Shown piece after piece: positions 4,105 through 44,869 of a DNA stretch of 64,000 nt. Numbering within the stretch: position 1 is the first letter of the stretch; the number at the start of each line of letters is the position of its first letter. The notes under the pieces are model-generated. The model was given only the letters and a program-made list of their open reading frames with translations. It ran no database searches and was not told the DNA's origin. The stretch comes from Bacteroidota bacterium (GTDB lineage Bacteria; Bacteroidota; Rhodothermia; Rhodothermales; UBA10348): NCBI GenBank assembly GCA_022567305.1, contig JADFHF010000005.1:1-64000 (forward strand). The letters run 5' to 3'. Made by a program: the position numbers and the translations under genes.

Positions 4105-4197
4105 GAGGATTTGCACGGATCTAATTCCGTCCCTATTATTGGCCTCGCTGAAATGCCCGGCATCGAGTGCCCGGTCAATCTGCACTTTGACATTGTG

Positions 4198-4317
4198 CTC
4201 ATCTAGAAGGACGGAGGGTTCAGGCCCTGAGAAGTCCTGGCAACCCCTGCGCTGCTCCCATGATCGGTTCAGGTAAGGTGCCAATTCCTGCCTCGCCAGT
4301 GAGCGAGGAAAGATGAG
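4198..4317 (+). ncRNA. SAM-I (S-box) riboswitch
   Basis: A 120-nt aptamer. P1 is formed by CTCATCT (4198-4204) and AGATGAG (4311-4317). Inside are the conserved GGAGGG, GGCCCTGAGAAGTCCTGG followed by CAACC, and later GGTGCCAATTCC, in the order and spacing of the SAM-I family. It precedes metX, an aspartokinase and a MetB-family gene, all fitting methionine control. A terminator starts 36 nt downstream of P1, so high SAM should stop transcription before metX. Confidence 0.95.
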
Positions 4318-4352
4318 TGGGAGACTTCGAGCTTCGGGCTCGAGCGCTTTAG

Positions 4353-4387
4353 CCTCTTCCGCTGCATCTTGCGGACGAGGTTTTTTT
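4353..4387 (+). terminator. Riboswitch expression-platform terminator
   Basis: A hairpin with paired segments CCTC/GAGG and CCGC/GCGG (4353-4380) is followed by seven T. It lies between the SAM-I aptamer and metX. A second hairpin just before it (CGAGC/GCTCG, around 4328-4344) could act in the alternative antiterminator fold. The ON/OFF assignment follows the known behaviour of SAM-I switches. Confidence 0.8.
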
Positions 4388-4488
4388 ATATCCTCTCTGC
4401 AACGTAGCTGAAAAGGGCTCACCCCACCCAGATCTCATCTCTTCGGCCTTCGGATGGACACGCGAACCGAGAATAAACTCGACGCACC

Positions 4489-5628
4489 ATGCCGAAAAAG
4501 GTCTGTATTTCTGATTTTCATTTGGAAGGAGGAGGTGTTCTACGAAACGCCTTCATCGTCTATCACTCGTGGGGCTCGCTCAATAGAATGGGCGACAACG
4601 TCATCGTTGTGTGCCACTCGCTAACCAGCGATTCGGATGCAGCTTCGTGGTGGAGCTCCTTGATCGGCCCTGAAAGAGTTCTCGACACGGATCACTATTT
4701 CGTGATTTGTCTGAACACGGTGGGTTCACCCTATGGATCGGTGTCTCCACTCTCAATCAATCCGGATACCGGAGCGAGCTACGGTGCCCGGTTCCCGGAC
4801 GTTACGAACCGGGATACCATCCGGGCCCATCGAGAAGCCCTACGAATTCTCGGAGTGCGGAAGCTTGCACTCGCCATCGGGGGCTCCATGGGCGGAATGC
4901 AGGTTCTCGAATGGGGCTTCCATGGAGACTTTGTCGACGCACTCATCCCAATTGCCGTTGGGGGGAAACACGCTCCTTGGGGCATTGCGTGGACGGAAGC
5001 CCAGCGTCAGGCGATCTATGCAGACCCGAAGTGGAAAGACGGCAATTATCCACCCGACGATGCGCCCGTGGACGGTCTGGCTGTTGCGCGTATGATGGCG
5101 ATAATCTCGTATCGATCGCCCATCGAGTTCGAAGATCGCTTCGGACGACGACCATCTTCCGATGGCCATCCGGGCTTCAGTGTCGAATCCTACCTCCGCC
5201 ATCATGGACAGAAGCTGGTCGACCGATTCGACGCCAACTGCTACGTCCACCTCACGAAGCAGATGAATTCGCATGACGTTTCTAGAGGAAGAGGTCAATA
5301 CGAAAAAGTACTCGGTCAGTTAAGCCAACGGGTGCTTGTCATTGGTGTCTCGAGCGATATGCTGTATCCGATCGAGGAACAGAAAGAACTCGCTTCTCTG
5401 TTGCCTAACGCGGACTTGAAAATTATTGATGCCCCTTTTGGACACGATAGTTTTCTCGTGGTGGCTGATCAGATCGACCGTGTGATCAGGCCCTTTATTG
5501 AACTCCTGGTCGTTGTCGGAGAACGGGGCGGACAGGAGTCTGCTGTAGCCCGGAGTACATCAACCATTCAAACTCTGAATGGCGCAAAAACGTGTTTCCC
5601 AATTCAATCTGAGTTGATATCCAACTAA
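4489..5628 (+). CDS. metX: Homoserine O-acetyltransferase
   Basis: Alpha/beta-hydrolase-fold enzyme that acylates homoserine for direct sulfhydrylation or transsulfuration to methionine. The nucleophile elbow is GGSMGGMQVLEW (Ser near residue 133). The acid is in VIGVSSDMLYPIEEQ and the histidine in PFGHDSFL near residue 325, giving the Ser-Asp-His triad. At 379 residues it has the family length. It is the first gene behind the SAM-I riboswitch and is separated from the next gene by 7 bp, so the three genes form one operon. Acetyl rather than succinyl donor is the family default and is not proven here. Confidence 0.93.
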   Translation: MPKKVCISDFHLEGGGVLRNAFIVYHSWGSLNRMGDNVIVVCHSLTSDSDAASWWSSLIGPERVLDTDHYFVICLNTVGSPYGSVSPLSINPDTGASYGARFPDVTNRDTIRAHREALRILGVRKLALAIGGSMGGMQVLEWGFHGDFVDALIPIAVGGKHAPWGIAWTEAQRQAIYADPKWKDGNYPPDDAPVDGLAVARMMAIISYRSPIEFEDRFGRRPSSDGHPGFSVESYLRHHGQKLVDRFDANCYVHLTKQMNSHDVSRGRGQYEKVLGQLSQRVLVIGVSSDMLYPIEEQKELASLLPNADLKIIDAPFGHDSFLVVADQIDRVIRPFIELLVVVGERGGQESAVARSTSTIQTLNGAKTCFPIQSELISN

Positions 5629-5635
5629 TCGAACC

Positions 5636-6580
5636 ATGTCTACTTTAACTGAATCACGTCCTTTGCCGGTACGCGTGCTCAAATTCGGCGGGTCATCTGT
5701 CGGCGATCCCGGCGCCATTTGCCGCGTCATCGACATCGTTCAAACGAGCGCAACCAAAAACCGCGTTGTCGTGGTCGTCTCGGCGCTCGCCCGAGTCACG
5801 AACACGCTCGACGCCATGCTTCGAGATCCTGCACCGGATCGAGCAAAGGAATTGCTGAACCTGTATCGCCGGCACGTTGATTCCGCCAGGGAATTGCTTT
5901 CGGAAGCGGAGTTGGAAACGTATAGAGCCACTCTCGGAAATCATCTCTCGAACATCATCCCGGCTCTTCGCCGGGTAAACCAACACGCAAGCACACACCT
6001 CGATGCCGCACACATACTCGCCGCCGGTGAACGATTCTCGGTACCCCTTGTGGCCGCTGCTCTTCGAACCGCGGGGCTGAATTCAAGATCGGTCGATGCT
6101 ACGTCGCTGATTCGGGTCGACAGTGTGAGTGAGAGCGACGTCGATCACAAGAAAAGCTACGATCAGATCCGTCGCTGGTACAAGACACTGCAACCCGGTG
6201 AAATACCAATCGTGACCGGTTTTATAGCAGGAGCTCCGTGTGGACGAACCGTTACGCTCGGGCGCGGCGGCAGCGACTTTACCGCATCGCTTCTGGCCAG
6301 CGCCTTGAATGCCAACCTGCTCGAGAGGTGGACCGACGTGGACGGTCTCTTTTCGGCAGATCCGAAAGAATCCGGGAAAGCCGAAAAATATGAGGTTCTC
6401 CGGATGGAGGACGCCGAAATTTTAAACCATGCAAACAAATTGGGAATGCACGAACACACGATTACACCGCTCCTGGCCTCGCGAACTCCGCTTCGGGTGC
6501 GATCCCTTCTTTCCCAGGGCGCGGACACGCTCGTCATTCCGATAACCGAATCTTCACCACGCCGTCTCCGCGCGCAGTGA
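5636..6580 (+). CDS. Aspartate kinase catalytic domain without ACT domains
   Basis: Amino-acid-kinase fold that phosphorylates aspartate, the first step toward homoserine, methionine, threonine and lysine. The nucleotide/substrate motifs are VLKFGGSSVGDP at the N-terminus, LAAGERFSVPL mid-protein, TLGRGGSDFTASL near residue 206 and ERWTDVDGLFSADP near 233. The protein ends at residue 314, right after the kinase domain. The usual C-terminal ACT pair (and the homoserine dehydrogenase half of ThrA/MetL) is absent. Without ACT domains the enzyme should not be feedback-inhibited, leaving the riboswitch as the main control. The stop is clean and the next gene follows after 55 bp. Confidence 0.88.
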   Translation: MSTLTESRPLPVRVLKFGGSSVGDPGAICRVIDIVQTSATKNRVVVVVSALARVTNTLDAMLRDPAPDRAKELLNLYRRHVDSARELLSEAELETYRATLGNHLSNIIPALRRVNQHASTHLDAAHILAAGERFSVPLVAAALRTAGLNSRSVDATSLIRVDSVSESDVDHKKSYDQIRRWYKTLQPGEIPIVTGFIAGAPCGRTVTLGRGGSDFTASLLASALNANLLERWTDVDGLFSADPKESGKAEKYEVLRMEDAEILNHANKLGMHEHTITPLLASRTPLRVRSLLSQGADTLVIPITESSPRRLRAQ

Positions 6581-6635: not shown

Positions 6636-7904
6636 ATGGAAAATCAAACACGTTTAGTACTTGCGGGCCAACAGATCGATCGCTGTTATAACAGTATCGT
6701 CCCGCCTCTATATCAAACCGCTATTTTCCGTTTTACGGACATCGGCGAGACGGCTGGATTCGACTATACTCGATCCGGAAATCCAACTCGCAAAACGCTC
6801 GAAGATATCCTGGCCGATCTCGACGGTGGAGCCGGCGCTGTCGCCACGTCCAGCGGTATGGGTGCGGTCTCGACGTTACTGTCAACGCTCGAGGCAGGTT
6901 GCCACGTAATCTGTTCGCACGATTGTTACGGGGGAACGGAACGACTCCTGACAACACTCTCCGAGCAGGGCAAGTTGAGTGTGTCATTTGTCGATCTGTC
7001 GGATCCAGATCTGCTCCTGGACGCAATACAGCCCGGTACAAAACTCGTTTGGATCGAGACCCCATCGAATCCACTCCTCAGGATTATCGACATTCGCGAG
7101 GTATCCGAGATTGCCCGCCAGAACAGCCTACTCGTTGTCGTGGACAACACCTTTCTTTCTCCGCTCGGTCAGAATTCGATTGAATTGGGAGCGGACTACG
7201 TCGTGTATTCGACCACGAAATACATCAATGGGCATTCAGACATGGTTGGAGGTGCTATAATAGCCTCCACGGATAAGCTTAATGAGCAGATTCAGTTCAC
7301 TGCGAACGCCCACGGAACCATAGCGCAGCCTTTTGACTGCTGGTTGGTTCTCAGAGGACTCAAGACGCTATTTCTTCGTCTGCAGCAGCACGAAGAGAAT
7401 GCGCATGCGGTGGCCGATTTCCTTACCCACCATCGCGCCGTGAAGCAGGTCTTTTATCCCGGCTTACAGGACCACGTCGGTCATGAAACCGCGAGCCGGC
7501 AGCAGCATCTCTATGGAGGGATGGTGTCTTTTGAACTCAGAGGTACGATCGAACACGTGAATCGGGTACTCATCGGGACCAAGATATTCGCCCTCGCAGA
7601 ATCGCTCGGCGGTGTCGAATCCCTGATTGAACACCCTGCTACGATGAGCCATGCTTCAATGCGGCCCGAACAGAGGGTAGCGTCAGGAATTACGGATGGC
7701 GTCATCCGGCTCTCCGTCGGAATAGAGAACGCAGACGATTTGATCAGGGATCTCGCACGAGCGCTCGATTGTCTCCACGTCGATCTTGGTTCAGGACATC
7801 TAAATTCAGAACATCTGAGTTCAGAACATCTGAGTTCAGAACATCTGGGCCAAGAAGAGCTGCAGCAAAATAAGCAGGGGCCAGACACGCTGGTCCCGGC
7901 CTAG
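6636..7904 (+). CDS. Cys/Met-metabolism PLP enzyme (cystathionine gamma-synthase-like)
   Basis: Fold-type I PLP enzyme of the MetB/MetC/MetZ group, the last step acting on the acyl-homoserine made by MetX. YTRSGNPTRKTLE, SSGMGAVSTLL, WIETPSNP, VVDNTFLSP and the PLP-lysine region YSTTKYINGHSDMVGG are all present, as is the C-terminal RLSVGIENADDLI. Whether it uses cysteine (MetB) or sulfide (MetZ) cannot be told from motifs alone, so no symbol is given. An unusual tail of about 40 residues carries repeats of the type LSSEH encoded by a 15-bp tandem repeat. The stop overlaps that of the convergent nth gene. Confidence 0.92.
   Translation: MENQTRLVLAGQQIDRCYNSIVPPLYQTAIFRFTDIGETAGFDYTRSGNPTRKTLEDILADLDGGAGAVATSSGMGAVSTLLSTLEAGCHVICSHDCYGGTERLLTTLSEQGKLSVSFVDLSDPDLLLDAIQPGTKLVWIETPSNPLLRIIDIREVSEIARQNSLLVVVDNTFLSPLGQNSIELGADYVVYSTTKYINGHSDMVGGAIIASTDKLNEQIQFTANAHGTIAQPFDCWLVLRGLKTLFLRLQQHEENAHAVADFLTHHRAVKQVFYPGLQDHVGHETASRQQHLYGGMVSFELRGTIEHVNRVLIGTKIFALAESLGGVESLIEHPATMSHASMRPEQRVASGITDGVIRLSVGIENADDLIRDLARALDCLHVDLGSGHLNSEHLSSEHLSSEHLGQEELQQNKQGPDTLVPA
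7790..7849 (+). repeat. 15-bp tandem repeat inside the MetB-like C-terminal tail
   Basis: Four consecutive 15-bp units, starting at 7790, 7805, 7820 and 7835; the middle two (TTCAGAACATCTGAG) are identical and the outer two differ at one to three bases. The unit is a multiple of three, so it adds five residues (LSSEH or LNSEH) per copy without shifting the frame. It lies beyond the conserved end of the enzyme. Confidence 0.9.
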
Positions 7905-8551
7905 ACGACCGTTACATCCAACCCATTCCGTTGACAGGTCCCGATCAGCGGGCATCGATCGCACGCGGGATTCCGTGCGTGGCAAATGGCGCGTCCGTGT
8001 AGAATAATCGCATGCCCCAGAAATATCCACTCCTCGGGAGGGAACACTTGCATGAGATCCTTCTCAACTTTCACCGGATCGGTCTGCCGGGTAAATCCAA
8101 TCCGTAAAGCCAGTCGCTTGATATGTGTATCAACTACGAACCCTGAGGGGATTCCGAAGTACGTCCCGAGTACGACGTTGGCTGTTTTTCTGGCCACGCC
8201 AGGCAGTCGAATCAGCTCTTCCATCGTTTGAGGAACCTCGCCTCCAAACTCATCCATAAGCATGTTTGCGGCTCCCAGCACCGATCTAGTTTTGTTTCGG
8301 AAAAAGCCCGTGGAGCGGATTTCATCCGAGAATACGGCCGGGTCAGCATTGGCGAACGCTTCGATCGTAGCGTATTTTTTGAAGAGTGAATCGGTTACTC
8401 GGTTTACGTTCACATCGGTCGTTTGGGCCGACAGGATCGTCGCGAAGAGCAGCTCGTGCGCCGCGCGGTGCACTAAGGCGCAGTTGGCATCGGGATACCA
8501 CTCGTGAAGGACGGCGACGACCGTGGCTGCATCAGGTGCGGGCTTCAGCAT
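7901..8551 (-). CDS. nth: Endonuclease III
   Basis: DNA glycosylase/AP lyase for oxidised pyrimidines in base-excision repair. The helix-hairpin-helix is LPGVARKTANVV with the catalytic lysine, and the essential aspartate is in VDTHIKRLALRIG. The 4Fe-4S ligands near the end fit C-X6-C-X2-C-X5-C (CHARNPACDRCPLIGTC). The ATG at 8551 (MLKPAPDAATVV) gives 216 residues, the normal length; the frame is open further upstream but would overlap def. It runs downstream of def with a 22-bp gap and its stop shares CTAG with the convergent MetB-like gene. Confidence 0.95.
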   Translation of the reverse strand: MLKPAPDAATVVAVLHEWYPDANCALVHRAAHELLFATILSAQTTDVNVNRVTDSLFKKYATIEAFANADPAVFSDEIRSTGFFRNKTRSVLGAANMLMDEFGGEVPQTMEELIRLPGVARKTANVVLGTYFGIPSGFVVDTHIKRLALRIGFTRQTDPVKVEKDLMQVFPPEEWIFLGHAIILHGRAICHARNPACDRCPLIGTCQRNGLDVTVV

Positions 8552-34921: not shown

Positions 34922-35629
34922 GTGAGCGAAAGACATTTCAGAGCGCAACATTATTTCTTGCATACCGTAGTTTTTTTGGTTCTGCTGGTCACGTCTGCTT
35001 GTCGCAGCACAGAAAGCATTACGACAGATTCCGCCATCAAACCCTCAGCCGACACAACCGCTGACTTGGAAGCGCTTTATTGGGCGCGCAAGGATAGCGC
35101 TCGAACATTATTCACGGATGCCGACGTTGAATTTATGACCGGTATGATTGGGCATCATGCGCAGGCTCTGATCATGGCGGGGCTCGCTCCAACGCACGGA
35201 GCGAACACGCAAATCCAGACGTTGTGTGCACGAATAATTAACGCTCAGCAAGACGAAATTGCTACGATGCAGCAGTGGCTTCGCTCACGCGGACAGCCGG
35301 TGCCTGAGGTTCAAATCACTGGAACGACGCTGATTGTACACGGTGCGGGCGAGCATGTCACACGCATGCCTGGAATGCTGACAGAAAAGCAAATACACGA
35401 GCTTGACGACTCCCAAGGCGCAGACTTCGACAGATTATTTTTAACCTATATGATCCAGCATCACCGTGGTGCAACCGTTATGGTCGACGAGCTGTTCAGC
35501 AAGGATGGTGCCGGCCAGGACGAACTGGCCTTCAAACTGGCCTCTGACATCAACGTAGACCAAATTACCGAGATCGCTCGGATGGAAAGAATGCTGAGAA
35601 TATTGTCGGGCAAGAGCCCGGATCATTGA
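34922..35629 (+). CDS. DUF305 domain lipoprotein
   Basis: Exported protein with a lipoprotein signal (VVFLVLLVTSAC) and a DUF305 (CopM-like) four-helix domain. Two conserved metal/helix motifs are FMTGMIGHHAQALIMAGLAP near residue 75 and FLTYMIQHHRGATVMVDELF near 178. The family is linked to periplasmic copper or metal handling in cyanobacteria; the role here is open. GTG start just after GAGGATACAC; 235 residues. It overlaps or abuts the LVIVD gene, so the two form an operon. Confidence 0.85.
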   Translation: MSERHFRAQHYFLHTVVFLVLLVTSACRSTESITTDSAIKPSADTTADLEALYWARKDSARTLFTDADVEFMTGMIGHHAQALIMAGLAPTHGANTQIQTLCARIINAQQDEIATMQQWLRSRGQPVPEVQITGTTLIVHGAGEHVTRMPGMLTEKQIHELDDSQGADFDRLFLTYMIQHHRGATVMVDELFSKDGAGQDELAFKLASDINVDQITEIARMERMLRILSGKSPDH

Positions 35630-35682
35630 CACTTTTGACATCCGGTCTCCCCGAACCCGTTATCCCTAACACTCAATCAATC

Positions 35683-37725
35683 ATGAAAGCCACAGCCCCT
35701 AACTATCGTCCTGCCACCCGTTCAGGCATCAATTATTTCTGGTCATTTCTGTTCGTTGTGGGCTTGCTGGGCGTGTCCGCCTGCGCGCCGAAACCTGTTA
35801 TAACCACAACCTCCACCCCGGCGCAGCCCGAAGCTACGTATACAACGACGGCGCCAAGCCCAGATCCCCGAGTCGGCCTCGGTGCCGGGCTCTTCGATGC
35901 CGAAGAGGCTGCATGGAACATCAGACTCCTTTCATCAACTCCGCCTACGGAAGCATTCGTCGGCGTAACGAACTCGGATCTTGCGTTTACCGGCAAGTAT
36001 GCCATTCAAGGCAACTATAACGGAATTCAGGTTTTTGATATATCGAACCCTTCGAATCCTTCTCTCGTTACCGAATATGTCTGCCCTGCGTCCCAGAGCG
36101 ATGTATCAGTGTATGGAAATCTAATGTTTGTCTCCGGCGAAGGGCTCGGCGGACGGCTGGATTGCGGGACTGAAGGCGTGAAGGAGGCAGTGAGCCATGA
36201 TCGGTTACGCGGAATCCGCATTTTTAACATTGACGACATCAAGAATCCGGTCTATATATCCAATGTTCAGACCTGCCGGGGCTCCCATACGCATTCCGTT
36301 CTGAAAGACCCGAACGACGATGAGAATGTTTACATCTATGTATCCGGCTCCGCTCCGGTTCGCCCTGAGGACGAACTCGCTGGTTGCTCCGACGCCTCAC
36401 CCGATGAAGATCCAAATTCGGCGCTTTTTAGGATCGAAGTGATCAAGGTACCCCTCGATCATCCCGAACAGGCAGCGATCGTGAGTTCGCCGCGGATCTT
36501 CGACGACCTGGTGGCACCTCCCACGCATGGCCAGTCGCCGGCTGATATCGCCGAGATGGAGGCCGCAAGGGCAAGTGGTGCGTTTATTGTTAAGCTTGGT
36601 GGCCAAGAGAGAATACTGCCCGCGCGATTCGTCACTCCAATGCTCAATTCTTTCATGGAGGAGCGAGGCGAAGGCGAGGCTACAGCTGCCGACACACTGG
36701 CATTTCGCGAGGCGCTTCCAGGAATAATTGCTGAGCGCTTTGGTATCAATGTAGACGACGACGAGAATGAGGAAGAGGATGCGGGTCCACCCCCAGGACC
36801 TACCCAGTGTCACGATATTACACTGTATCCTGAGATCGGTCTTGCGGGAGGTGCGTGCGGAGGCTACGGAATGCTGCTGGACATCTCAGATCCGGAACAT
36901 CCTACTCGGATGGACGCCGTCGCTGATTCGAACTTTTCATACTGGCACTCCGCAACGTTTAGTAACGATGGCACCAAGATCCTCTTCACAGACGAATGGG
37001 GCGGTGGCGGCCAGCCCAAATGCCGTGCTACGGATCCAAAAGAGTGGGGCGCGAACGCATTCTTTTCAATTGAATCTGGCAAAATGGAGTTCAAAAGCTA
37101 TTACAAGCTGCCTGCAGCGCAGACTTCGGTGGAAAACTGCGTAGCACACAATGGCTCTCTGATTCCGATCCCGGGGCGCGAAGTGATGGTACAGTCATGG
37201 TACCAGGGTGGTATTTCCGTTTTCGACTGGACTGACTTGGAGAATCCCATCGAGATAGCCTACCACGATCGCGGGCCTGTGAATGCGGACGAGATGGGGA
37301 ACGGTGGGAGTTGGTCGGTTTACTGGTACAATGGCGTTATCGTGAGTTCGGAGATCGCTCGCGGACTCGATGTATTCGAATTGCTGCCCAGCGGCTTCAT
37401 TTCAGAAAACGAAATAGCGGCGGCTAATACAGTCAAACTTGATTACCTCAATACCCAAGGTCAGCAAAAATATGTTTGGCCAACCACATTCGTGCTGGCG
37501 CGCGCTTACGTGGATCAGCTGGAGCGATCGAAGGGCCTCTCTGCCAGTCGAATTGCTTCGACCCGGCAGGAACTCACGAACGCGGAAAACGCGTCTGGAC
37601 GAGCACGGCGAAACGTACTCACCACATTGTCTGCAGAGCTCATTGACGCTGCCGCAGGAGACGAGGCAGCGAAAGTGCACATGTTGGCTGGTGTTGTTCG
37701 CGACCTGGCATCGGGGACGCCTTAA
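35683..37725 (+). CDS. LVIVD-repeat lipoprotein
   Basis: 680-residue exported protein with lipoprotein signal (FLFVVGLLGVSACAPKP) followed by a Thr/Pro-rich linker. The body carries LVIVD-type beta-propeller repeats: YNGIQVFDISNPSNPSLVTE, RGIRIFNIDDIKNPVYISNV, GMLLDISDPEHPTRMDAVAD, GGISVFDWTDLENPIEIAYH. A central acidic insertion (DDDENEEEDAGPPPG) and a helical C-terminus follow. Cysteines and HxH-like residues (SHTHSV, YWHSATF) could bind metal. The ATG at 35683 is preferred over an upstream start that would overlap the DUF305 gene. Function unknown. Confidence 0.85.
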   Translation: MKATAPNYRPATRSGINYFWSFLFVVGLLGVSACAPKPVITTTSTPAQPEATYTTTAPSPDPRVGLGAGLFDAEEAAWNIRLLSSTPPTEAFVGVTNSDLAFTGKYAIQGNYNGIQVFDISNPSNPSLVTEYVCPASQSDVSVYGNLMFVSGEGLGGRLDCGTEGVKEAVSHDRLRGIRIFNIDDIKNPVYISNVQTCRGSHTHSVLKDPNDDENVYIYVSGSAPVRPEDELAGCSDASPDEDPNSALFRIEVIKVPLDHPEQAAIVSSPRIFDDLVAPPTHGQSPADIAEMEAARASGAFIVKLGGQERILPARFVTPMLNSFMEERGEGEATAADTLAFREALPGIIAERFGINVDDDENEEEDAGPPPGPTQCHDITLYPEIGLAGGACGGYGMLLDISDPEHPTRMDAVADSNFSYWHSATFSNDGTKILFTDEWGGGGQPKCRATDPKEWGANAFFSIESGKMEFKSYYKLPAAQTSVENCVAHNGSLIPIPGREVMVQSWYQGGISVFDWTDLENPIEIAYHDRGPVNADEMGNGGSWSVYWYNGVIVSSEIARGLDVFELLPSGFISENEIAAANTVKLDYLNTQGQQKYVWPTTFVLARAYVDQLERSKGLSASRIASTRQELTNAENASGRARRNVLTTLSAELIDAAAGDEAAKVHMLAGVVRDLASGTP

Positions 37726-42173: not shown

Positions 42174-42619
42174 GAACGCGTGTGACGTGCGGTTTCGCTT
42201 TCGTAAATCTGAAAACCGTTATCCTGCGTCCTGAATGGAAGAAAAACTGAAAGCCCATATGTGCTCCGACGGCGATTGAATCTTTTACTATGAGACTCGC
42301 AGATACTCCGCGCATGATGCCGATGACCGCTTTCAACCTCGAGATCGTTTTCGGCACGCCAACCTGGCCTCGGAATCCCAGCCTGGGAGGAACAGAAGAT
42401 CAGAGAGTTGCCGCTCAGCAGCGAAACGGGGCAACGTCCAGTGACCAGACGAACGTCTGACTATTCGATGTACTCCCCCCTATACCAGAAGCAATGATTG
42501 AAGAGTACCAAAACACTCATTACCGGCTTCAGCCGATAACGGGCTAAACAGTCTTGCCTTATTCGGCGCTTGCTTCTACCTTTCTTCGGATGGTCGTTAC
42601 GAGGAACCCAAGTTGCTGC
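42174..42619. other. Intergenic region between ppc and glycosidase gene
   Basis: 446 bp with no supported gene. A minus-strand frame (42148-42357, SRLKAVIGIMRGVSASLIVK then MGFQFFFHSG) looks somewhat protein-like and could be a remnant; I could not assign it. No terminator or known motif was seen. Confidence 0.4.
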
Positions 42620-44869
42620 ATGACCCGCCACATTCTGCTCCTGCTCTTCCTACTCGTCGGATTCAATGCATTCCTGGCCTTTGACGCCCATGCGCAGAAT
42701 GAACACCGAATTGCGATTCGAACAGCCGAGGGTCGCGCTGAGTTCTATGACAGAACGACCGGCAAAACGTTCGTGCCACGGGGCAACAACTACATCGAAC
42801 TCCGGGCAGACCCGACAAATTCGTTTCTGATCAGCAGCCTCTTTTTTCCCACCTACCACGATGCCGCTGACATCGCATTCGATTTTGAGAGGATGCAAGC
42901 CCTCGGCTACAACACTGCGCGCATATTTATCGATCAATGCAAAGACGTAAACTGCATCGCAGATGTAGCTGGTGGCCTCCGAGACGACTATATGGACAAC
43001 ATCGTGGAGTTGCTCCATCTCGCGCGCCGCCACGAGATCTTTGTGCTGCTTACCGCGAACTGGCTGCCGGATGTCGGTGGGTACCTCGATGCCCACGTTA
43101 CCTGCCCGCCCACGTTTGATGCAGGCAATTGCCTGCTGATGTCCAGCGAAGGCGTTGCCTCGTACCGGCGTTATTTTCAGGATTTTGTGCAGGGCCTCCT
43201 GGATCGCCAGGCTCCGCTCGACATCATCCTGGGCTACCAACTTCGCAATGAAGCCTTTTTTGAAAATTTTTTACCGCCCCTGAGTTGGTCGTCGGGCCAG
43301 GTTACAACGGCTAATGGCCAGACCTACGATATGGCATTGCCCGAAGACAAAGCGCGCATGGCAGAAGAGGGATTGATCCACTGGGCCAACGAAACCAGGG
43401 CCGCTATCCGTGCCTTAGACCCAACGGCTTTGGTCACGGCGGGCTTCTTTGCCCCAAACTTTCCGCATGAGTGGCGGCCGGGCGCCCGGCGCCTGGTTCT
43501 CACCAGAGGCGTGCTGCGAGACTCGGACCTCGACTTTTTGGATTTTCACCTTTACTCGGACGCTGGGCTGACCATGACGCAACAGGTGGAGAACTTCGGC
43601 ATGGTCGGCTATGAAGCCAAACCGATCATTCTCGGCGAGATGGGGGCCTTTCGGAATCAATATGCCTCCCCGGCGACGGCCGCCCAACCGCTGCAAACCT
43701 GGCAAGCCGAGGCATGTGCGGCCGGCTTTGACGGATTTCTCTTATGGTACTGGGATCCGATCAACTCGCCGCTCGTCGGCGACAACGTATGGGGACCTCA
43801 TGACGGAACCGGCGAGATTGCCCGTGCGCTCGCTCCGGTTTTTCATTCAGATCCCTGCGAGGACGACATAATCCCCAACCTGGCTGCCGGCAAGCCAACT
43901 TCAGCCTCTACCTCCCTGCCGGGTGCGCCGCCTGAGCAAGCCACTGATGGAAACCTGGAGCAAGGATGGGGTGCTGGGAGCGGCCCCGTGCAGTGGATCG
44001 AAATCGATTTGCTGCAACCAACGACCATCGGCCGGATAGCCCTTCGGGTCGATCAGTTTCCCGCGGGTCCAACCGTGCATCAAATCCAGGGACGCGCGAT
44101 CGAGCAGGATCCTTACGAGTTGTTACACGAGTTTAGCGGATCGACGCAGCATGGAGAGTGGTTGGAAGCAACGCCCACAACACCCTGGGAGAGCATACGA
44201 TGGGTGCGTGTGCTGACGACGCAGTCCCCTTCGTGGGTGGCCTGGATGGAAATAGAAATTTACCCTCCGGAGACCAGGCTGGCTTTGCCACTGCCGCCGT
44301 CGCAACAAGCGCCGGCGCACCTGGCTGAAGGCCTCTCGACGATGCAGACCCTTGAATGGAATGCTGTTTCTGATGCCGACACGTATGAGGTGCAGGTATC
44401 GACCGAATCCGATTTTAACAGCCTGGTCTTCGAGCGTTCCGATTTGACGGTCACGGACGTAGCCATCGGTCCGCTGCCAGACGATGCCGGGTACTATTGG
44501 CGCGTCCGTGCCCAAAACGCCGATGGCGACAGTCCGTGGTCGGCCGTGCGACATTTTACCGTCGGCACTGCCACGACGGTTGCCCCCGGGTCGTCGGATA
44601 TACCCAACAGCTTTGCAAGCTATCCCGGCTATCCCAATCCCTTCCGCTCCGGAACAACGCTGCGCTTCGACCTTCCCGAGCCGACCCCTGTAAGCCTCGT
44701 GGTCTATGACGTGCTGGGCCGGAAAGTGATCACACTCGTATCGAAGACGCTGCCCGCAGGTCAGCATCGCGTGCAGTGGCGTCCCGAAGGCACACCAAGC
44801 GGCCTCTACTTCTATCGCCTCACAGCCGGCGATGTGAGCCATACGGGACGGTTGTTGCTGGTAAGATAG
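42620..44869 (+). CDS. Secreted GH5-like glycosidase with F5/8C, FN3 and T9SS sorting domains
   Basis: 749-residue exported enzyme. Signal peptide (ILLLLFLLVGFNAFLAFDAHA), then a cellulase-like TIM barrel to about residue 415. The acid/base glutamate is likely in GYQLRNEAFFE and the nucleophile in KPIILGEMGAF. Next come a discoidin/F5-8C-like domain (ATDGNLEQGWGAGSGPVQWI), a fibronectin-III-like module (LEWNAVSDADTYEVQVSTES) and the sorting domain (YPNPFRSGTTLRFDLPE, GLYFYRLTAGDVSHTGRLLL). It should be exported across the outer membrane by the type IX system. Substrate unknown. Base composition seems more GC-rich than neighbours. Confidence 0.85.
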   Translation: MTRHILLLLFLLVGFNAFLAFDAHAQNEHRIAIRTAEGRAEFYDRTTGKTFVPRGNNYIELRADPTNSFLISSLFFPTYHDAADIAFDFERMQALGYNTARIFIDQCKDVNCIADVAGGLRDDYMDNIVELLHLARRHEIFVLLTANWLPDVGGYLDAHVTCPPTFDAGNCLLMSSEGVASYRRYFQDFVQGLLDRQAPLDIILGYQLRNEAFFENFLPPLSWSSGQVTTANGQTYDMALPEDKARMAEEGLIHWANETRAAIRALDPTALVTAGFFAPNFPHEWRPGARRLVLTRGVLRDSDLDFLDFHLYSDAGLTMTQQVENFGMVGYEAKPIILGEMGAFRNQYASPATAAQPLQTWQAEACAAGFDGFLLWYWDPINSPLVGDNVWGPHDGTGEIARALAPVFHSDPCEDDIIPNLAAGKPTSASTSLPGAPPEQATDGNLEQGWGAGSGPVQWIEIDLLQPTTIGRIALRVDQFPAGPTVHQIQGRAIEQDPYELLHEFSGSTQHGEWLEATPTTPWESIRWVRVLTTQSPSWVAWMEIEIYPPETRLALPLPPSQQAPAHLAEGLSTMQTLEWNAVSDADTYEVQVSTESDFNSLVFERSDLTVTDVAIGPLPDDAGYYWRVRAQNADGDSPWSAVRHFTVGTATTVAPGSSDIPNSFASYPGYPNPFRSGTTLRFDLPEPTPVSLVVYDVLGRKVITLVSKTLPAGQHRVQWRPEGTPSGLYFYRLTAGDVSHTGRLLLVR

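Follow-up and report, generated by a model that had tools for sequence, protein, structure and literature searches.

An aspartokinase without ACT domains, apparently the only one of its genome, in a methionine operon behind a predicted SAM-I riboswitch of a Rhodothermales bacterium

Organisation of the met operon

The window analysed here, a stretch of 64,000 nucleotides of contig JADFHF010000005.1 (assembly GCA_022567305.1) from a bacterium of the Rhodothermales (Bacteroidota), contained the three genes metX, an aspartokinase gene and metB, which are arranged in one direction and separated by gaps of 7 and 55 bases (Table 1). The genome (G000 in our numbering; other G-numbers denote relatives and L-numbers fetched loci) is a draft of 3.76 Mb and 95.6% completeness. 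A SAM-I (S-box) aptamer was located upstream of the met genes on the same strand. It passed the threshold of RF00162 (gathering score 44.4 bits) and was the single SAM-I match in a search of the whole genome. The original prediction had placed the kinase gene between metX and a metB-like gene behind a SAM-I switch, and this was confirmed.

Table 1. Features of the met operon and its leader (positions in the window)
Feature	Position	Strand	Evidence and remarks
SAM-I (S-box) riboswitch aptamer	4196..4319	+	RF00162, 81 bits, full length
Predicted antiterminator 5' arm	4310..4324	+	15 pairs with 4355-4370; overlaps 3' strand of aptamer helix P1
Intrinsic terminator	4353..4387	+	stem 4353-4380 followed by seven T; stem -16.8 kcal/mol
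metX, homoserine O-acetyltransferase	4489..5628	+	TIGR01392, 418 bits; NF001209 above cut-off
ACT-less aspartokinase	5636..6580	+	ATG to TGA, 314 aa; no other aspartokinase found in G000
metB-type cystathionine gamma-synthase (PLP enzyme)	6636..7904	+	PF01053, 6.9e-143; best NCBIfam match TIGR02080, below cut-off

Folding of the leader revealed that the antiterminator pairing is mutually exclusive both with P1 and with the terminator. For the ligand-free leader the structure containing P1 and the terminator (-81.8 kcal/mol) was close in energy to the one containing the antiterminator (-75.7 kcal/mol). The expression platform is thus built like a transcription switch that SAM turns off, a direction which we infer from the fold. 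At low SAM the antiterminator would form and the operon would be read; with SAM bound, P1 and the terminator would form and the operon would be off. The original prediction held that SAM is the only control of the kinase. The switch itself is well supported by the aptamer score and by folding, but that nothing else acts on the enzyme is presumed rather than observed.

The 3' end of metB contained a 15-base tandem repeat (7789-7847; 3.9 copies, 90%) which encodes a repeat tail of the SEHLS type, and a similar degenerate repeat tail was present in MetB of the relative G005 (L063). Elsewhere in the window two open reading frames (35626-37725, 699 aa; 42554-44869, 771 aa) had no Pfam match at 1e-10.

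The kinase consists of a catalytic core

Aspartokinase is a classical example of an enzyme under allosteric feedback, which is exerted through ACT domains. In the kinase of the met operon the sole Pfam match was AA_kinase (residues 13-289, 4.8e-39). Neither an ACT domain nor a fused homoserine dehydrogenase (PF00742) was detected in the 314 residues, and the protein covered only positions 5-287 of the 442 positions of the NCBIfam profile asp_kinases. Because metB begins 55 bases after the kinase stop codon there is no room for an ACT module 3' of the stop, and a frameshifted or hidden ACT domain at this place was ruled out.

The catalytic part appeared to be complete. The aspartokinase motifs KFGG, GE, GRGGSD and WTDV-G as well as the aspartate-binding residues were all present, and the catalytic residues K16, S49, T55, E132, R210 and D214 were invariant in an alignment of 33 sequences. 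The closest solved relatives by sequence were the aspartokinases of M. jannaschii and E. coli, which aligned over their catalytic part. An AlphaFold model of the kinase (pLDDT 91.6, pTM 0.90) matched the same structures with TM scores of 0.84-0.85 when normalised to the query and of about 0.6 when normalised to the target, the latter being expected if the ACT part of the solved enzymes has no counterpart in the kinase. What had been predicted for the protein itself (all catalytic motifs, an end at residue 314 without ACT domains and no fused homoserine dehydrogenase) was borne out, and the structure prediction that had been proposed as a check points the same way. The sequence confirms a full aspartokinase catalytic core without ACT, for which phosphorylation of L-aspartate is predicted.

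It might be argued that the reading frame encodes some other amino-acid kinase, as its score with TIGR00657 (188.8 bits) was lower than the curated cut-off of 208.7 bits. However, the low score can be attributed to the missing C-terminal third of the profile, and the best matches in sequence as well as in fold were aspartokinases, several of which have been solved with aspartate bound. Since T55, E132, R210 and D214 are kept and the gene shares its operon in relatives with those for Asd, homoserine dehydrogenase, MetX and MetB, a different specificity is hardly credible.

A second objection would be that the kinase is still feedback-controlled, either at a site within its catalytic core or by an unrelated ACT protein encoded elsewhere. 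Our ACT search addressed the aspartokinase-type family PF22468 only, and in G008 it gave a weak match in a frame of 135 codons (26.1 bits, below cut-off). The same search was positive in ThrA of G005, G007 and G009, with two domains each, and found no PF22468 in G000, G001, G004, G011, G013 and G017. A separate ACT subunit, named in the original prediction as one finding that would speak against it, was thus not seen in G000 at the level of this family. The operon contained no partner gene, and the ACT-less homologues of the kinase (38-49% identity) had no domain added. We therefore regard remaining feedback control of this kind as unlikely.

ACT-less aspartokinases in the order

How unusual is the lack of ACT domains? 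A sample of 80 aspartokinase loci from named genomes of many phyla, taken from among the matches listed and serving as a control rather than as a census, contained one clearly ACT-less kinase, and this locus (L116, contig JABMOI010000238.1) came from a relative that belongs to the same family as the bacterium of the window. In the other loci the catalytic core was followed by an extension of some 100 residues or more, which in most cases had the length of a pair of ACT domains or was a fused homoserine dehydrogenase. This applies to all frames that could be read through; two were broken and two ran past the end of the contig.

Within the window's order ACT-less kinases were common. With one exception (L068) they were located in met operons, and for nearly all of these the stretch also contained a SAM-I match. 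In the kinase tree the ACT-less enzymes formed one clade (18 rows, support 100/100) distinct from both ThrA and the lysine-type kinases. Judging from these sequences, ACT loss is old in the order and tied to the methionine operon. Most of the order, for example G005, G028, G032 and G048, possessed ThrA together with an ACT-less kinase, and in G028 a lysine-type kinase (L242), which is fused to a domain of the DAP-decarboxylase type (AK-LysA), has kept its ACT domain. As the ACT-less clade is separate from the ACT-bearing ThrA and AK-LysA, one kinase per branch was likely the ancestral state, with the ACT-less enzyme as the isozyme of the methionine branch. The kinase of the window would then descend from an order-wide paralogue that lost ACT and was committed to the methionine operon; ACT feedback would have been retained in ThrA and in the AK-LysA fusion.

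The exceptional locus L068 (G048:C1:454000-465000, at about 4725-5585) encodes a further ACT-less aspartokinase of G048 that is not part of a SAM-I operon. It is close to a weak dapB-like match.

A single aspartokinase and an empty ThrA site in G000

From the situation in most of the order, where ThrA accompanies the ACT-less kinase (and AK-LysA with ACT is present in G028 in addition), one might expect the enzyme of G000 to be an isozyme for methionine alone, accompanied by another aspartokinase that bears ACT and serves the other amino acids. However, a search of the 95.6%-complete draft for a second aspartokinase, which the original prediction had proposed, found none. Two PF00696 genes were present, the kinase of the window and a UMP-kinase-like gene. 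Moreover, the site of ThrA was empty. G005, G007 and G009 have a fused ThrA that is flanked by an mreD-like gene on one side and by tRNA-Ala on the other; in G000, G001, G013 and G015 these two flanking genes are separated by no more than about 60-180 bases, with no ThrA there. Because the mreD-like gene adjoins tRNA-Ala in G000, a ThrA hidden in an assembly gap was ruled out and the loss from this site is real. With neither a second aspartokinase nor an aspartokinase-type ACT domain in G000, the arrangement with two enzymes is improbable for this genome. The predicted methionine isozyme is thus supported for the order by its clade of met-operon kinases, but not in G000, where it has no second aspartokinase at its side.

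A small ORF flanking the ThrA site, considered as tatA, proved to be a spurious frame over tRNA-Ala.

G005, the nearest relative in the kinase tree, still has ThrA, which makes it probable from the sequences compared that ThrA was lost more than once. The opposite was seen in G007, G009 and G018, which have kept ThrA and whose SAM-I operons yielded no ACT-less kinase. Since G000 has only two PF00696 genes, kinases of the glutamate 5-kinase, acetylglutamate kinase and LysZ types are missing as well, which suggests further amino-acid gaps.

Products of the branch

In addition to metX and metB, G000 carried thrB-thrC (contig C48) and asd (C76), the latter not linked to the met operon. No dapB above the cut-off was found in the 16 members of the window's family that were tested, and no dapA reached the cut-off in this family; relatives at the level of the order were positive for both. 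It thus seems that homoserine, used for methionine and threonine, is the single outlet of the trunk, and that G000 has lost the branch to lysine and DAP. The result for dapA and dapB also bears on the source of the diamino acid of peptidoglycan in the family. Because of the presence of thrB and thrC the kinase probably supplies threonine as well as methionine, and its dedication to methionine, as originally predicted, is doubtful in G000.

The homoserine dehydrogenase step

No homoserine dehydrogenase (PF00742) was found in G000 or in some 10-12 relatives of 91-100% completeness, despite the presence of enzymes that use homoserine, namely MetX and, where checked, ThrB and ThrC. A possible solution lies in the operon of the relatives, which is composed of a SAM-I riboswitch, metB, metX, a gene for a short-chain dehydrogenase of 252 residues, the ACT-less kinase gene and asd. 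In the corresponding operon of two other families of the order (L067, L069) the gene after that of the kinase encodes a genuine homoserine dehydrogenase. The short-chain dehydrogenase is FabG-like (adh_short) and matches neither PF00742 nor PF03447. In G013 its gene is found at 4274-5032 of locus L058. The gene is next to that of the kinase in 15 genomes, which are PF00742-negative without exception, and in none of 36 PF00742-positive genomes. As the genomes tested with this pair form one clade of the kinase tree, the association probably represents one event and not 15 independent ones. One genome with the paired genes, G017, had a second SAM-I riboswitch (G017:C39:4620-4732) near metX and a metY-like gene.

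In G000 the orthologue of the dehydrogenase (59% identical) is located on contig C93, at 7362-8126 of locus L085, not linked to the kinase, beside sufS and a DUF2480 gene, which is its place in many genomes. Its presence or absence failed as a discriminator, because most genomes that have a homoserine dehydrogenase carry it too, often beside sufS-DUF2480. The relatives G015 and G019 keep it as well, in the same vertical tree, and searches of both found no aspartokinase, asd, homoserine dehydrogenase or SAM-I riboswitch; thrC was kept in both and thrB in G015. Without kinase and asd, the retained thr genes and dehydrogenase of these two genomes are no proof of a working homoserine pathway. Retention of the dehydrogenase there and in many genomes with a homoserine dehydrogenase may indicate another role, or more than one.

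Rates of evolution gave no firm sign that constraint on the dehydrogenase is relaxed where ThrA is present. In Tajima's test on the dehydrogenase the comparison of G000 with G005 reached significance for no more than 4 of the 6 outgroups, and G009 and G018 gave no significant result. The distance of the dehydrogenase relative to that of MetX was 1.08-1.19 with ThrA and 0.78-1.01 without it, a weak difference in the direction that relaxation predicts.

On the sequence evidence the FabG-like enzyme is the best candidate for the missing homoserine dehydrogenase. That it acts as a non-orthologous homoserine dehydrogenase, and after the loss of ThrA completed the route from aspartate to homocysteine together with the ACT-less kinase (under one SAM riboswitch in the relatives, from split loci in G000), is a tentative proposal to which we give somewhat less than an even chance. 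Alternatively, the branch might be broken, in which case the cell would import homoserine or receive it from its neighbours, and the operon would be a remnant used in scavenging. The failure to find a homoserine dehydrogenase in G000 and dapB in the family would fit such a view, as would G015, which retains thrB-thrC with neither aspartokinase nor asd. An intact SAM-controlled operon of kinase and MetX, joined by asd in relatives, would however be hard to explain without flux, and we give a broken branch little credence.

Proposed role of the kinase

We favour an explanation in which metX, metB and the gene of an aspartokinase that consists of the catalytic core only are transcribed together behind the SAM-I switch. 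In G000, where ThrA has been deleted and the lysine/DAP branch has seemingly gone, this kinase alone would supply aspartyl phosphate. Together with the unlinked Asd it would provide homoserine for both MetX-MetB and ThrB-ThrC, without the usual allostery by lysine and threonine, the FabG-like enzyme being the best candidate for the dehydrogenase step. Taken as a whole, we consider it likely that a sole, ACT-less aspartokinase under a SAM-I switch feeds homoserine to methionine and threonine.

Since an ACT-less lineage is the only aspartokinase left in G000, control of entry into the branch may have shifted from the protein to the RNA level. Nature would thus offer a test of whether transcriptional control alone can substitute for feedback. 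Replacement of homoserine dehydrogenase, if true, would correct predictions of auxotrophy for such genomes.

Comparison with known systems

In a limited search of the open-access literature we found no description of an ACT-less aspartokinase in a met operon or of a short-chain homoserine dehydrogenase. The methionine-branch aspartokinase of E. coli, MetL (AKII-HDHII), is controlled by expression through MetJ and is not known to be under feedback. It differs from the kinase described here in that it is fused, bears ACT and is one of three isozymes. MetL is an enzyme of the route from aspartate to homoserine (PMC4239095). A replacement homoserine kinase has been reported (PMC9026213), and a homoserine-free route to homocysteine has been described in Desulfovibrio (PMC5764234).

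With LysC, ThrA and MetL (PDB 2j0w, 3c1m, 2cdq) the kinase of the window shares the catalytic fold, the nucleotide and aspartate motifs and the position in the pathway. It differs from them in lacking both C-terminal ACT domains and a fused homoserine dehydrogenase, and in its SAM-I riboswitch. Similarly short proteins are described by TIGR02078 (AspKin_pair, putative aspartate kinase subunits of Pyrococcus), a profile of 327 positions. Members of this family occur as paralogous pairs without most of the regulatory region. The kinase of the window scored 105 bits with this profile, against a cut-off of 242.4, and in contrast to such pairs it is encoded by a single gene in a bacterial met operon, with no paralogous partner in G000. 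Finally, the operon resembles other SAM-I (S-box) methionine operons in its aptamer family, in the terminator/antiterminator design and in the targets metX and metB/metY. What distinguishes it from the usual SAM-I operons is that its targets include an ACT-less aspartokinase, joined in relatives by asd and either a homoserine dehydrogenase or the short-chain dehydrogenase.
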